This document shows positions 3,425 to 14,239 of a stretch of 33,543 nt of DNA, piece by piece. A model generated the notes under the pieces. It was not told where the DNA came from. It searched no databases and worked only from the letters and a program-made list of their open reading frames with translations. The stretch comes from Saprospiraceae bacterium (GTDB taxonomy: Bacteria; Bacteroidota; Bacteroidia; Chitinophagales; Saprospiraceae). Both the position numbers and the translations under genes were made by a program. The stretch is from positions 1 through 33,543 of the forward strand of contig JANTGI010000021.1 in assembly GCA_024762995.1 (NCBI GenBank), read 5' to 3'. The first letter of the stretch is position 1. Each line of letters opens with the position of its first letter.

Positions 3425-3580
3425 ATGAAGCGGACATTTCAACCATCCAATAGAAAACGTGCCAACAAACATGGCTTTCGGGAGCGCATGAGTTCCAAAA
3501 ACGGACGTAAAGTTTTGGCTCGTCGTCGGGCTAAGGGACGCCACAAACTAACCGTCTCCGACGAATTTCACACGAAGTAA
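3425..3580 (+). CDS. rpmH: 50S ribosomal protein L34
   Basis: This is a short basic protein of 51 residues beginning [18 protein letters not shown] and containing [19 protein letters not shown], the hallmark sequence of L34, a component of the large ribosomal subunit. The length is at the upper end of the usual 44-52 aa, with a C-terminal tail of TVSDEFHTK. It is followed 24 nt later by rnpA, the classical rpmH-rnpA order, and both are probably transcribed from the promoter at 3270-3300. The gene is below common ORF length cut-offs and so is easily lost in automatic calls. Confidence 0.97.
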
Positions 3581-3604: not shown

Positions 3605-4009
3605 ATGTCTCTGTTTGCGTTTCCGGCTAAGGAAAGACTAAAAAATAAAAAGCATATATCATTGCTATTCAAAAGCGGTCATACATTGGCCGCTTTTCCT
3701 GTTTTGGGTATTTATCGATTTAATGATGCCCAAAATGTCCATTTTGACCCTGATTTCCCCCTTAAAGTCGCCTTTTCCGTTCCCAAAAAGCATTTTAAGA
3801 AAGCCGTGACTCGCAACCTTATCAAGCGACGCATGAAGGAGGCTTGGAGATTAAACAAAAAACAGTACACTGAATTTTTAGAGAAAAGCAACCTAACCGT
3901 TCAGATTATCATCATTTACATAGGAAAGGAGCCGCTTACCTACAAAAGTATTGAAAAGAGCATAAAGAAACTTTTGCGAAAGCTACCAAAACATCACCCC
4001 AAAAACTAG
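3605..4009 (+). CDS. rnpA: Ribonuclease P protein component
   Basis: RnpA is the protein subunit of RNase P and assists the catalytic RNA in removing 5' leaders from precursor tRNAs. The 134-aa protein starts with the family-typical FPAKERLKNKKHISLLFKSG and has FSVPKKHFKKAV followed by the conserved RNxxKR helix (RNLIKRRMKEAWR, from residue 70), which contacts the RNA. The length is normal. It lies 24 nt downstream of rpmH and very probably shares its promoter. A yidD/yidC arrangement, often seen next to rnpA, is absent. Confidence 0.95.
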   Translation: MSLFAFPAKERLKNKKHISLLFKSGHTLAAFPVLGIYRFNDAQNVHFDPDFPLKVAFSVPKKHFKKAVTRNLIKRRMKEAWRLNKKQYTEFLEKSNLTVQIIIIYIGKEPLTYKSIEKSIKKLLRKLPKHHPKN

Positions 4010-7454: not shown

Positions 7455-8984
7455 CTAAAAGGGGACATCGCCAATGTCATCATCATTCATTTTGGATGGT
7501 TTGGTGATGGCGTTAGAAGTAGGTGTGGAGACCATTCCGGCGGGCATATTCTCGAAGTTGATTTCTTGATAATCGGTGAATTTAGCAAACTCTCCAATCC
7601 ATCTTAGCTTGATGGTATCGGTGGGGCCGTTACGGTGTTTGGCAATGATAAACTCCGCCATTCCGGCAACGGAATTTCCTTCTTCATCTACATCCAAGCC
7701 GTAGTATTCGGGGCGATAGATAAAGGTTACGATATCCGCATCTTGCTCGATGGCCCCCGATTCACGCAAATCAGAAAGCTGTGGCCGCTTGACACCACCC
7801 CGCGCTTCTACTTGACGACTTAGCTGGGATAAGGCAATAATGGGTACAGATAGTTCTTTGGCCAAAGCTTTTAGCGACCTGGAGATCATAGAAATCTCTT
7901 GTTCACGATTCTTGGTACCACTGTCTCCACCGGCGGTCATTAACTGGAGATAATCGATAATGACTAATTCCAAGTTAGAGCTAGACTTGAGCCGGCGACA
8001 TTTGGCCCTAAGCTCAAAGATGTTAATGGCGGGGGTGTCATCAATATAAATAGGTACATCAGACATTCTTTCAATGGTCTTTTGGAGTTGCACCCATTCA
8101 TGTCCTTGTAATTGCCCATTACGCAGGCTTTTCATATTGATTTCTGCTTCCGCGGCAATGATTCTTTGTGCCAACTGCACGGCTCCCATTTCTAGGGAAA
8201 AAATAGCTACGCCTTTTTTGTAATCCATGGCGGCATTTCGCGCCAGCGCTAAAGTCAAAGATGTTTTACCCATACCGGGTCGAGCAGCCACAATAATTAA
8301 ATCAGAAGGCTGCCAGCCGGAAGTAACCTTGTCTAAATCCGTAAAGCCGGACGGGACACCGGTAAAGGCGTCTGTTTTTTTGGATAATTCTTCCACGCGT
8401 TTGACGACCATGGCGGATAAGCCGCTTAATTCTTCAAAGCTTTTGGATAAATTATTTTGGGTGATGGCAAAAAGTCCCTGTTCGGCCATTTCTAATAAGT
8501 CAAAAACATCGGAGGTGTCTTCATAGGCTTCTCCGATTATTTTGGTAGAAAGGTGCAGGAGCTCTCTCTTGATAAACATCTCGGAGATAATCCTTGCATG
8601 ATACTCGATATTGGCGGCAGAGCTTACCTTGTTGGTTAGTTCTACTAAGTAGTGGGGGCCGCCGATACTTTCTAATTGGCCGTTTTTCTTTAATTGTTCG
8701 GATACGGTAAGAAGGTCAACCGGTTGAGATTTTTCAAAGAGATTTAATATGGCTTTATAGATTTCTTTATGGGCATCAACATAAAAAGCATCTGAAACCA
8801 AAATATCCATGACAGTGACCAATCCTTCTTTATCAAGCATTAAGGCACCCAAAACAGCTTCTTCCAGGGGGATGGCTTGGGGCTGGACTTTTCCAAACAA
8901 ATAGTTGGCTCCTTCATTAACTTTGTTTTTGCGTCCTAAGCGGTTCCCTGTTATTGGCTGTATTTTTTTGGTTTCTTTACTCAT
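7455..8984 (-). CDS. dnaB: Replicative DNA helicase
   Basis: DnaB is the hexameric ring helicase that unwinds DNA at the replication fork. The 509-aa protein has the DnaB N-terminal domain at about 35-140 (starting at IPLEEAVLGALMLDKEGL) and the RecA-like ATPase domain from about 200, with Walker A RPGMGKT (K240), a Walker B-type strand LVIIDYLQLM and the family motif SQLSRQVEARGGVKRPQLSDLRESGAIEQD split across two helices. No intein or insertion is visible. It is transcribed leftwards from a long AT-rich gap that carries DnaA-box-like sequences. Confidence 0.97.
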   Translation of the reverse strand: MSKETKKIQPITGNRLGRKNKVNEGANYLFGKVQPQAIPLEEAVLGALMLDKEGLVTVMDILVSDAFYVDAHKEIYKAILNLFEKSQPVDLLTVSEQLKKNGQLESIGGPHYLVELTNKVSSAANIEYHARIISEMFIKRELLHLSTKIIGEAYEDTSDVFDLLEMAEQGLFAITQNNLSKSFEELSGLSAMVVKRVEELSKKTDAFTGVPSGFTDLDKVTSGWQPSDLIIVAARPGMGKTSLTLALARNAAMDYKKGVAIFSLEMGAVQLAQRIIAAEAEINMKSLRNGQLQGHEWVQLQKTIERMSDVPIYIDDTPAINIFELRAKCRRLKSSSNLELVIIDYLQLMTAGGDSGTKNREQEISMISRSLKALAKELSVPIIALSQLSRQVEARGGVKRPQLSDLRESGAIEQDADIVTFIYRPEYYGLDVDEEGNSVAGMAEFIIAKHRNGPTDTIKLRWIGEFAKFTDYQEINFENMPAGMVSTPTSNAITKPSKMNDDDIGDVPF

Positions 8985-9206
8985 TTTAGTTTTTCTTTTT
9001 GAAACATATTAGAAAAATCTTGGTTTAAAGACACTTTTTCCATGATTTTCCTATCAAAAGCTCCTTTTTATTCTCAAATTTTCCAAAAATAAAGAAAAAA
9101 TGAAGGTAAAATGTTGACAATAGGCAGCCAAAAGAAGTCAATTGTTATAATTTTCTCCAAAGCTAAGTATATTTTTGGACATAAAAAGAGAAACAAATAC
9201 GATTAC

Positions 9207-9686
9207 TTCTCCACAATTGTGGAGAAACGAAGGCTAGAATGTGGAAAATGGGGCTCGTTAAAATAGTTTTCCACAAAAAACTGGAGTTTTCCACTGTTTT
9301 ATTTGTTTATACAAAACAAATTATACTTTTTTATATATATTAGCAACTCAAAAAACGGAGTTTAGGAAAATAGTATTTTCATATTTAATTTTTTTATATA
9401 ACAATGTGCTTGTGATTAGAAGAAAATAGAGATGTTGAAAAAAAAATTATATTTTTTTTTCAGAAAAGTGACAAGGCTTATGCACAACAATATGTTTTGA
9501 TTTAGTATATATATATATATGTAAAAGTTTCATGTTGAAGTAATATGCTAGAGTTTTGAGTACTTAAGTTGTTCTGAAGTGTCGAACATCATAGGCGCCA
9601 TCAAAATATAGGGATTGTCGGTCAATCTTCAAGGTAACCAGCCGTATTACACTTGTTTTTGATCAATTTCTCTCATGTGTGCATAT
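9207..9686. other. Candidate replication origin: DnaA-box cluster and AT-rich tract in the 850-bp gap right of dnaB
   Basis: The gap 8985-9834 has no supported gene and is very AT-rich. It contains many 9-mers close to the DnaA box TTATnCACA: an exact match TTATGCACA (9478-9486), TTTTCCACA (9267-9275), its reverse complement (9240-9248), TTTTCCACT (9287-9295), TTATACAAA (9307-9315), and TGTGCATAT on the reverse strand (9678-9686). The sequence TTCTCCACAATTGTGGAGAA (9207-9226) is a perfect 20-bp palindrome made of two head-to-head box-like units. A 15-bp (TA)n run at 9506-9520 and the poly-A/T tracts around 9300-9470 could serve as an unwinding region. dnaB diverges to the left and the next gene runs right. 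dnaA itself is not in the window, so this remains a prediction. Confidence 0.5.
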
Positions 9687-9717
9687 GGTTTGGATTATCT
9701 ACACGGTTAAAAATACC

Positions 9718-9755
9718 TATTTTCTGCCTAAAAACAGGGATACCAAAACAGTTAC
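9718..9755 (+). repeat. Dispersed 38-bp repeat, copy 4
   Basis: This copy starts TATTTTCTGCC, passes through AAAAACAGGGATACC and ends AACAGTTAC. It is used here as the reference copy. It ends 79 nt before the start codon of the membrane protein gene at 9835. Confidence 0.65.
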
Positions 9756-9834
9756 AGAAATTTTAGTTTGACAACCAAAAAATACCTACCTTCGGCTTTG
9801 TTACACAAAGTGCTTTGATTAAATATAATATCGA

Positions 9835-11371: not shown

Positions 11372-14239
11372 ATGCCATTGGATAAAGTCATTTTGCGACA
11401 GCTAAAAAATTTTAAAGGAGAAGTCTATAATGATGAACTATCCATCGGAATTTATGCGACGGATGCTTCGGTTTATATGATTAAGCCTATGGCGGTGGTG
11501 GTACCGAAAGATAATGAGGATGTGGTTTTGGCTCATCAGGTGGCTTTTGCCAATAATTTGCCGATTCTTCCGCGGGGGGCAGGCACTAGTTTGGCCGGTC
11601 AGGCTGTTGCGCATGCCATTGTCATTGATTTTTCCAGGCATATGACCAATATCCTAGAAATCAATCCGGAACAAAAGACCGCTCGTGTTCAACCGGGGGT
11701 CATCCATCAAAGCTTAAATAGAGCTCTAAAAGAATATGGTCTGCTTTATGGGCCCGATCCGGCCACTTCCAGTCGTGCCAATATGGGTGGCATTATTGCC
11801 AATAACTCTTCCGGTTCACACAGTATCGTCTATGGGAAGGCGGTGGATCATATCGTTTCGATGAAGGTGGCACTTGATGACGGCACAGTTTTGACTTTTA
11901 AGGATGAGTCACTTGAGTCGGTTGCCCGAAAATCTAATGAACCTACGCGAGAAGGAATGATTTACAAGGAATTGCTGTCCATTATTCACCAACACCAAGA
12001 GTTAATTATTGACGGGTATCCCAAAGTAATGCGTCGGGTGACGGGGTATAATCTGGATGAGTTTGCGACGAAAGATGTTTGGAACTTGGGGCAGTTAATT
12101 TGCGGAAGCGAAGGGACATTGGGGACTATATTGGAAGTGACGGTGAGTCTGGATGAATTACCACCTAATAAAGCGGTTTGTGTGGTGCATTTTGATGACC
12201 GCATGAAGGCGATTGCGGCGGTTCATTCCATTTTAGATTTTGGGCCTGCTGCGGTGGAGTTATTGGATAAATCGGTTATTGATTTGGCCTTGACTAATCC
12301 GGCGACAAAGAAAATTTCAGGATTTATTGAAGGGCGACCGGATGGCTTGTTGATTGTCGAGTTTTATGGAGATAGCCCGCATGAACTTGACGAAAAGCAT
12401 CAAGTATTGGAGACTTTTTTGCGTGAGCAAGGCATGGGCTATGCTTATCCGTTTTTTCACCAGCGGTCGGATAATGCTACTTTTCAGAATATTTGGGAAG
12501 TGCGCAAACAAGGCTTGGGTTTGCTGCTGAGTATTCGGGAAGATGCTAAGCCACAACCTTTTATTGAAGATGCTTGTGTGCCGGTGCCGGTGCTTGCGGA
12601 GTACATTCAAAAAGTCGTTGATTTTTGCGAAAGCTTAGATACCCAGCTCATCCTTTATGCACATGCAAGCGTGGGCGTGCTACATGTACGTCCTATTCTC
12701 GACTTGCGTCAAAAAGAAGATATAGAAAAATTTAAGACCATTTCAGCCAAAGTTTTGGAGTTTGTCAAGTACTACGGCGGTTCTTGGTCGGGGGAGCATG
12801 GAGACGGGTTGGTGCGTAGCCCTAGGATACCTGATTTTTATGGCGAGGAGATATATGGTGATTTTGTTCGTGTCAAAAAGGTCTTTGACCCGAAAGGGAT
12901 ATTAAATCCGGGTAAGATAGTGGATGCGGAACCTATGGATCATCACCTTCGATATGGGGTTGATTATAAGGAACAGGAAGTGGATACCGTTTTTCATTAT
13001 CGTAAGGAGTTGAGTTTTAGTAGTTTAGCTAATATGTGTAATGGGATTGGTGTCTGTCAGCGCACGGAGGGCGGTGTGATGTGTCCCAGTTACAAAGCGT
13101 CTCGTCATGAGATGGATTCTACACGGGCACGAGCCAATGCCTTGCGTCTAACCTTGTCCGGGGAGCTTGGGCAAGGAGATTTTACTTCCGATGAATTAGA
13201 AACGGTATTGGATCTTTGCGTAAGCTGTAAATCCTGCAAAACCGAATGCCCAAGTAATGTGGACATTGCCAAGATGAAAAGTGAAGTCACCCAAAAACGC
13301 TATGATAAGCATGGATTGGGTATGCGAGAAAAGCTTATTCTCAAAAGTGATGCTTTCGCAAAAACCTTCTCCGGATGGGCGGCCGGCTTGGTGAATTGGG
13401 GGCAGTCTTTATGGATTTTTCGCCGAGTATTGGAGTCCGTCGCCAAGATTGATGCCAGGAGAAAGCTCCCGCAATATGCGCATTTCTCTCTAACCAAATG
13501 GTATAGAAAAAACTATCGCCCCACGGATAAACCAAGCGTGGTTTTATTTGCTGATACCTATATCAACTACCATGAGCCACAAATAGGCATCGCCATTATT
13601 CGGTTATTGAGTAAGATGGGTTTTCATGTGCAATTGGTTGACGTAGGGGGCAGCAAACGCCCATTGATTTCTAATGGTTTTTTGAGGAAGGCAAAAGAAC
13701 ACGGGGAGCTTTTGGTTCAAAAATTAATGCCCTATCTCGACAAGAATCTACCAATAATTGTCTGTGAACCTAGCGCCTATTCTGCCTTGAAAGAAGATAT
13801 TCCGGATCTCATCGATAATGAAAAGGACGGAAAAAAACTAAGCCAAAACACAATCTCTTTGGAGCATTTTGTAGCAGATTGGTTGGATGATCATCCGAAT
13901 ACACCGAAGTTTCGCTCCAAGTTGGCGGCGCATTATCTTTTTGGGCATTGCCACACAAAGGCCTTAGAAGGGATGGAGTATCTCGAAACTATTTTTAAAA
14001 ATGTAGATGGAAATTATACCATCATCGACGCCGGATGCTGCGGGATGGCAGGCGCTTTTGGATTTGAAAAAGAGCATTATGACTTTTCCAAACAAATTTT
14101 TGATAATGATCTGGGCCCTAAGTTGCAAGCCATTCCAAAATCAGCTACCGTCTTAGCCACAGGGTTTAGTTGTCGTGGTCAGATAGATGATTTTGGGGCT
14201 CAAGATGTCAAGCACTGGGTGGAGATTTTGGATGTGTAG
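11372..14239 (+). CDS. FAD-linked oxidase fused to Fe-S/CCG domains (D-2-hydroxyacid dehydrogenase, GlcD-GlpC/YdiJ type)
   Basis: This 955-aa enzyme probably oxidises a D-2-hydroxyacid such as D-lactate, glycolate or D-2-hydroxyglutarate and passes the electrons through its Fe-S clusters to an acceptor. The order is: FAD_binding_4 domain (about 35-260, with LPRGAGTSLAGQA and ANMGGIIANNSSGSHSIVYG), FAD-oxidase C-terminal domain (about 270-530, ending in SGEHGDG and GILNPGKI), a ferredoxin-like region with C556, C562 and C571 and a classical C616-xx-C619-xx-C622-xxx-C626, and a CCG (heterodisulfide reductase-like) region with GHCHTKALEG and DAGCCGMAGAFG. The length fits the fused YdiJ-like class. 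It stands alone between tatA (divergent) and a bidirectional terminator. The exact substrate is uncertain. Confidence 0.9.
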   Translation: MPLDKVILRQLKNFKGEVYNDELSIGIYATDASVYMIKPMAVVVPKDNEDVVLAHQVAFANNLPILPRGAGTSLAGQAVAHAIVIDFSRHMTNILEINPEQKTARVQPGVIHQSLNRALKEYGLLYGPDPATSSRANMGGIIANNSSGSHSIVYGKAVDHIVSMKVALDDGTVLTFKDESLESVARKSNEPTREGMIYKELLSIIHQHQELIIDGYPKVMRRVTGYNLDEFATKDVWNLGQLICGSEGTLGTILEVTVSLDELPPNKAVCVVHFDDRMKAIAAVHSILDFGPAAVELLDKSVIDLALTNPATKKISGFIEGRPDGLLIVEFYGDSPHELDEKHQVLETFLREQGMGYAYPFFHQRSDNATFQNIWEVRKQGLGLLLSIREDAKPQPFIEDACVPVPVLAEYIQKVVDFCESLDTQLILYAHASVGVLHVRPILDLRQKEDIEKFKTISAKVLEFVKYYGGSWSGEHGDGLVRSPRIPDFYGEEIYGDFVRVKKVFDPKGILNPGKIVDAEPMDHHLRYGVDYKEQEVDTVFHYRKELSFSSLANMCNGIGVCQRTEGGVMCPSYKASRHEMDSTRARANALRLTLSGELGQGDFTSDELETVLDLCVSCKSCKTECPSNVDIAKMKSEVTQKRYDKHGLGMREKLILKSDAFAKTFSGWAAGLVNWGQSLWIFRRVLESVAKIDARRKLPQYAHFSLTKWYRKNYRPTDKPSVVLFADTYINYHEPQIGIAIIRLLSKMGFHVQLVDVGGSKRPLISNGFLRKAKEHGELLVQKLMPYLDKNLPIIVCEPSAYSALKEDIPDLIDNEKDGKKLSQNTISLEHFVADWLDDHPNTPKFRSKLAAHYLFGHCHTKALEGMEYLETIFKNVDGNYTIIDAGCCGMAGAFGFEKEHYDFSKQIFDNDLGPKLQAIPKSATVLATGFSCRGQIDDFGAQDVKHWVEILDV

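Follow-up and report, generated by a model that had tools for sequence, protein, structure and literature searches.

The DNA upstream of dnaB, the gene of the replicative helicase, carries in a Saprospiraceae genome an array of four DnaA-type boxes that is very probably a DnaA-binding regulatory region of the dnaB promoter, through which transcription of the helicase gene would be regulated. The window analyzed here (33,543 nucleotides) is the entire contig C21 of a 3.68-Mb assembly with 241 contigs, labelled G000, and the closest named relatives of its DnaB are mostly Saprospiraceae assemblies. A sequence-only reading of the window had proposed the gap 5' of dnaB as a candidate chromosomal origin (oriC) or, alternatively, as another DnaA-binding locus controlling dnaB. 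The alternative is supported by the conservation of the boxes, their fixed distance from a -7-like promoter element and their recurrence 5' of dnaB in the family. The origin was not borne out: across the gap, third-codon-position GC skew keeps its sign, and in three genus members it flips at ctaA instead.

The gap is AT-rich and free of genes, as had been described (Table 1). It is flanked by the minus-strand dnaB and, on the other side, by a plus-strand gene pair, of which one member encodes a winged-helix protein and the other has no match in Pfam; Rfam at gathering thresholds detected no known non-coding RNA in the window. Other elements noticed in the gap were likewise confirmed, namely a perfect 20-bp palindrome (TTCTCCACAATTGTGGAGAA, 9207-9226), which is the proximal unit of the array, a (TA)n run at 9506-9520, and mismatch boxes. 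The rpmH-rnpA pair (rpmH start at 3425, rnpA at 3605-4009) is indeed nearby, at ~5 kb from the array rather than the 4 kb that had been given.

We defined a strict DnaA-type box as TTNTCCACA. This 9-mer occurs four times in the window, at 9207 and 9267 on the plus strand and at 9218 and 9240 on the minus strand, and all four copies fall within 69 bp (9207-9275). The shuffle mean is 1.58 for the whole 33.5 kb, and four copies anywhere are reached in 5 of 100 shuffles, so that the packing into 69 bp, and not the count, is beyond chance. Copies with one mismatch to TTNTCCACA stand at seven positions of the gap (9079, 9112, 9153, 9287, 9433, 9478 and 9695). The exact TTATnCACA 9-mer to which the earlier reading had drawn attention is present (TTATGCACA, 9478-9486), but the importance attached to it did not hold: the motif occurs three times in the window versus 1.48 expected, which is chance level, and it was rejected as the key motif. 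The one-mismatch box TTTTCAACA is a possible weak distal box; this degenerate box and the AT-rich block upstream of the array are left unexplained by regulation of dnaB.

Table 1. Features of the dnaB upstream region, in window coordinates
Feature	Position	Strand	Remark
dnaB, replicative DNA helicase, 509 aa; gene preceded by the array	7455..8984	-	Pfam DnaB_C 5e-109 and DnaB N-terminal 9.5e-34
Gene-free gap 5' of dnaB	8985..9834	.	71% A+T; no ORF of 80 aa or more
TAGCTTTG, fits TAnnTTTG -7 consensus of flavobacterial promoters	9158..9165	-	8/8 invariant and 41 bp from array in 5 genus members
Four-box array TGTGGANAA-18-TTNTCCACA-13-TTNTCCACA-2-TGTGGAGAA (minus-strand reading)	9207..9275	-	exact spacing kept in genus
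Box 4, promoter-proximal, TTCTCCACA; one half of 20-bp palindrome	9207..9215	+	
Box 3, TTCTCCACA; other palindrome half, 2 bp from box 4, 3' ends facing	9218..9226	-	
Box 2, TTTTCCACA	9240..9248	-	
Box 1, distal, TTTTCCACA	9267..9275	+	
AT-rich block upstream of array, contains TAATATATATAAAAAA	9318..9343	-	partly conserved in genus (alignment)
TTTTCAACA, one-mismatch box	9433..9441	-	aligned position in 4/5 genus members

Within the genus, the geometry of the array is kept exactly. Spacings of 18, 13 and 2 bp, followed by 41 bp to TAGCTTTG, are identical in all five genus genomes. Among these five, invariant columns make up 34/36 positions of the boxes and 8/8 of TAGCTTTG, versus 1/33 of the spacers, 11/41 of the 41-bp stretch and 51/362 of the remainder of the 480 bp. 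Spacer length is thus kept while spacer sequence varies, which is what recognition by a protein complex would lead one to expect. A search of 60 whole genomes for the exact array found it once in each of the five genus members, always at dnaB, and in none of the 55 others. To judge from this pattern, the array is under selection.

The downstream end of this fixed arrangement resembles a promoter. In an account of Flavobacterium psychrophilum, TAnnTTTG is given as the -7 box of the main sigma factor, at -12 to -5 (PMC9723704). With TAGCTTTG placed at -12 to -5, the start of dnaB transcription is predicted near 9153, and the box centers would lie at about -58, -69, -91 and -118. The promoter is half supported, because no TTG (-33) stands at 17-23 bp from TAGCTTTG. 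Across the family, TAnnTTTG was found between the last box and the dnaB start codon in 19 of the 22 boxed genomes, versus 2.4 expected from base shuffles; it is absent after the last box in G005, G023 and G034. Distances from the last box to the first TAnnTTTG cluster at 33, 41-45, 52-54 and 73 bp, with 131 and 135 bp in two genomes. Taking one value per genus (15 of the 18 boxed genera have TAnnTTTG after the last box) and restricting the main test to distances of 80 bp or less, which excludes two values, we found a period of ~10 bp among 13 related genera (P 2.5e-4, allowing for the choice of period); with all 15 distances, a period of 10.5 bp gives P 0.0012. The distances of the boxes to the -7 element look helically phased. 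Arrays at nrdB (3/18) and boxes at dnaA (2/9) were without such a relation to TAnnTTTG.

Recurrence at dnaB extends well beyond the genus. In 22 of the 26 family genomes examined, representing 18 of 22 genera, the 500 bp preceding dnaB contain boxes, and the family dnaB loci hold 58 boxes versus 0.70 expected from first-order resamples; the gene of an M1 peptidase, used as a control, has boxes within that distance in 1 of 29 family genomes. Strict boxes are absent at dnaB in four of the 26 (G009, G015, G022 and G025), and 0 of 4 same-order genomes outside the family have boxes 5' of the gene. These counts concern loci among the best 30 matches per gene, which cover 26 of the 34 family genomes with a match for dnaB, 23 of 36 for dnaA, 22 of 31 for nrdB and 29 of 37 for the control. 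The eight dnaB-match genomes outside the count are G010, G035, G006, G008, G011, G021, G029 and G031, and of these uncounted genomes G010 has three boxes and G035 one box at dnaB. Boxes with G in third place are left out of the family counts, as are the genus's own distant nrdB relatives from the nrdB survey; two loci were dropped, L307 of the control (match start not the gene start) and L274 of nrdB (no upstream DNA).

Named dnaB loci, 80 in all, were scored over 700 bp upstream of the match. Boxes were present in 9 of the 13 loci titled Saprospiraceae or Aureispira and in 4 of the 52 loci L119-L170, which are mostly Flavobacteriales (L122, L136, L151 and L170); L122 is a Saprospiraceae record that is also in the family count, and L155 has no upstream DNA. 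Among the remaining 16, which fall between L092 and L118, four are boxed (L092, which is G004, L100, L102 and L103). The nine neighbors of dnaB in the window were found at none of 57 other dnaB loci (tblastn, E 1e-6; flanks are short and some contigs appear twice). Because the neighbors are not shared with other dnaB loci, control by the window neighbors was rejected; by this comparison, the array belongs to dnaB rather than to its neighborhood.

Boxes were also found at other replication genes. In the window genome, multi-box sites occur in C166 (three boxes), C120 (five), C26 and C39 (pairs) and C56 (a tandem repeat). The three boxes of C166 (L001/L011, 4144-4247) lie ~290-390 bp 5' of dnaA, and each of the remaining four genomes of the genus likewise shows two to four boxes 5' of dnaA, with autoregulation as a possible role. 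In the family, boxes were found at nrdB in 18 of 22 genomes examined (50 boxes versus 0.10 expected) and at dnaA in 9 of 23 (17 versus 0.55), including all five genus members. The C120 array (L010, 3568-3683) packs five boxes into 116 bp in the geometry of nrdB arrays; it adjoins corA, as in some relatives, but the next gene encodes a SpoIIE-type phosphatase and not NrdB. For nrdB, a distant relative alone was found in four of the five genus members, and none in G002; the C120 array has possibly outlived its gene or been taken over. With five boxes versus four, C120 also displaces the dnaB array as the richest cluster, although the dnaB array is denser per base. C120 was rejected as an origin, its third-position skew being strongly positive on both sides. 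In G001, the skew changes from plus to minus at a C120-type array (L215, G001:C113 20001-40000, near locus position 12957), and the right-hand neighbor of this array differs from that in G000, pointing to a rearrangement at the array.

Such arrays raise the question of whether the boxes at dnaB regulate anything. The array could serve to titrate DnaA or to control DnaA-ATP, in the manner of datA or DARS, and stand beside dnaB by chance without regulating it, which we consider improbable. It is a multi-box array in a non-coding gap, and the comparable C120 array, standing by a phosphatase gene instead of nrdB, indicates that arrays may outlive promoter roles. On the other hand, the known datA and DARS loci combine a box cluster with sites for nucleoid proteins (IHF/Fis) and are not tied to a promoter, whereas here the distance to the -7-like element is exact in 5/5 genus members, distances are phased in the family, and boxes stand 5' of dnaB in most of the genera surveyed. 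A titration view of DnaA boxes has been put forward elsewhere (PMC12371093). Still less probable is that the palindrome serves as operator for some unrelated transcription factor that binds as a dimer, its likeness to DnaA boxes being a coincidence. A perfect 20-bp palindrome is a usual form of an operator, but boxes 1 and 2 are single, non-palindromic and conserved as well, and the 9-mers of other genera are single, tandem or inverted at varying offsets, as for the asymmetric site of a monomer; moreover, nrdB and dnaA are enriched in this 9-mer too, and copies of it cluster around ctaA.

The idea that the gap is oriC, where DnaA would assemble on the array and open the AT-rich block so that replication starts there, draws on a gap that combines a tight cluster of four strict boxes (69 bp) with an AT-rich block and a (TA)n run, and on rpmH-rnpA nearby. 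The raw cumulative GC skew of the window has its minimum at 4.5-5 kb, which is ~4 kb from the array and may be counted for an origin in this region, but it is not at the gap. Third-codon-position skew is +0.128 to the left of the gap (4 ORFs) and +0.147 to the right (14 ORFs; z 0.5). Per gene, it is +0.27 for dnaB and +0.24, +0.42 and +0.21 for the next genes on the right; slightly negative values (-0.05 to -0.07) occur in 3 of 6 genes on the left, which are small and further left, and 2 of 16 genes on the right are negative. Across ten dnaB loci, seven have no skew step, G019 and G010 change from minus to plus, as an origin would, and G022 changes from plus to minus. The dnaB array is also surpassed in box number by C120.

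The minus-to-plus flip is found instead in the gap 5' of ctaA, which encodes haem A synthase (COX15-CtaA), in all three genus genomes with contigs spanning that gap (G001, G002 and G004). Since there is no sign change at the dnaB gap and a flip at ctaA in the genus, the oriC reading is not supported, and we regard it as very unlikely, even though each ctaA gap of the genus has just two strict boxes, compared with four in the dnaB array. A 583-kb contig, G036:C134, carries both genes, dnaB at 150 kb and ctaA at 528 kb: as far as 530 kb, skew is negative in 32 of 33 sampled stretches of 10 kb, including those around dnaB (the one exception being +0.001), and 4 of 5 sampled beyond ctaA are positive. 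G055, a genome of another family, has dnaB within its negative arm, ~0.5 Mb from a flip between the stretches at 1.32-1.34 and 1.36-1.38 Mb, which is ~20-80 kb from ctaA and not at it (17 stretches of a 2.85-Mb contig were sampled, all within its first 1.6 Mb). In the genus, we consider the gap 5' of ctaA to be the likely oriC.

Family-wide, the skew test at ctaA gave a mixed result. Among 12 genomes, eight step up with z>3, seven of them with a sign change and G034 without, there is no step in G010 and G022, and the step is opposite in G005 and G009; the z values, which assume independent sites, are overestimates. In the latter two genomes (G005:C110, L322-L323; G009:C22, L330-L331) the skew at ctaA passes from plus to minus, the reverse of what an origin would give, with an inversion, reversed polarity or a moved origin as candidate explanations. 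Strict boxes around ctaA (~4 kb) number at least three in 16 of 27 family loci, and two loci have none. With 26 strict boxes within 4 kb, spread over both flanks of ctaA, L061 (G026:C349) is a candidate origin unusually rich in boxes. The search for ctaA in G003 gave no match. Gene-orientation bias, as a test for origins, gave no clear pattern at dnaB or ctaA. In L217 (G002:C35, 6024-13187), an rnpA-like gene, recognized by eye, and an M1 peptidase gene lie 3-7 kb from ctaA and the skew flip; in the window, rnpA and the M1 peptidase gene adjoin dnaB.

In the window genome, contig C9 breaks off 374 bp beyond the ctaA start, and C198 does so 150 bp into an acyltransferase gene; in G001, the acyltransferase gene faces ctaA across the gap. 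Read towards these ends, third-position skew is negative in 6 of 6 ORFs of the last 11.7 kb of C9 and in 4 of 5 ORFs in the 4.5 kb of C198, and hence the sign would flip at a junction of the two, in keeping with an origin located there. By synteny with G001, this C9-C198 junction is presumably the ctaA gap of the window genome.

The sequence itself shows the boxes with their conservation and spacing, the distance to the -7-like element, the recurrence at dnaB and a skew of unchanged sign in the window; from it we infer DnaA as the binder, the transcription start, the regulation of dnaB and the sign of that regulation. The DnaA of the window genome has a standard DNA-binding domain (Bac_DnaA_C, 9.1e-27). 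DnaA would bind the four 9-mers upstream of the -7 element rather than on top of it, and bound DnaA would regulate dnaB, most likely as an activator that touches RNA polymerase from a fixed face of the helix. The supply of helicase would then be coupled to active DnaA, and dnaB may be part of a replication regulon of the family that includes nrdB and, in the genus, dnaA. Class I activators such as CRP occupy positions like those of box centers near -50, -60, -70 and -90, and this resemblance favors activation, which we hold with moderate confidence to be the sign of DnaA regulation at dnaB.

DnaA is known as a transcription factor, and dnaB is a reported member of its regulon, with predicted DnaA boxes, in Caulobacter crescentus (Hottes et al. 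2005, as cited in PMC8203912). That species belongs to a different phylum, and the array described here differs in being locked to a flavobacterial-type -7 element (box number and geometry stand outside this comparison). In a report on M. tuberculosis, a pull-down from genomic DNA showed DnaA bound upstream of dnaB, and a DnaA mutant with weaker binding there under-expresses dnaB (PMC7738170), which fits activation. The same report describes a palindrome of two DnaA-box-like sequences, located at Rv0010c-Rv0011c, whereas here the palindrome is at dnaB itself, in a different phylum and promoter type. E. coli DnaA was described to prefer close box pairs, 2-3 bp apart, that mark a compact regulon, with one such pair at nrdA (PMC11317965). 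At dnaB, the two boxes 2 bp apart are inverted so that their 3' ends face each other (the comparison with E. coli covers distance and not orientation), unlike the close pairs at ctaA in the family, which are tandem. At the nrdAB and dnaA promoters of E. coli, DnaA is reported to act as activator or repressor through several boxes (PMC8203912). Like E. coli, part of the family is boxed at nrdB and dnaA; unlike in these E. coli cases, the family is also boxed at dnaB, at a phased distance to the -7 element. For Bacteroidota, predicted origins have been described, e.g., in Elizabethkingia (PMC8994065) and Blattabacterium (PMC2768785), and the literature searched contained no report of DnaA boxes at dnaB in this phylum, nor of an origin at ctaA. 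For Caulobacter and Mycobacterium, DnaA sites at dnaB are already on record, and the present locus would add a Bacteroidota case.

The orientation of close pairs (gap of 4 bp or less) differs between loci, as counted in related genomes that are not independent. All ten pairs at ctaA loci (L061-L090) are tandem, and 15 of 16 at nrdB loci (L252-L281) are convergent; dnaB loci have six convergent pairs, five of them with the 2-bp gap of the genus array, and three tandem ones. We tentatively consider a geometry code of DnaA in Saprospiraceae, in which pairs with facing 3' ends and a gap of 1-3 bp (the genus dnaB array and family nrdB) would mark transcriptional targets and tandem pairs with a gap of 2-3 bp the origin region at ctaA, with DnaA as a phased upstream activator at dnaB. 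This code is rather doubtful: outside the genus, 3 of 4 close pairs at dnaB loci are tandem. If it were true, one protein would license the origin and set the supply of the helicase it loads.

A conserved array at a fixed distance from a likely promoter suggests that DnaA controls the helicase gene, and with the oriC reading set aside this control is well supported by sequence. Origin prediction can be led astray by clusters of boxes beside replication genes; here ctaA, at which the assembly of the window genome is broken, marks the likely origin. The array makes a precise prediction, namely that dnaB is under the control of the same initiator that loads its product, and it offers a promoter of fixed spacing for examining DnaA as a possible activator.
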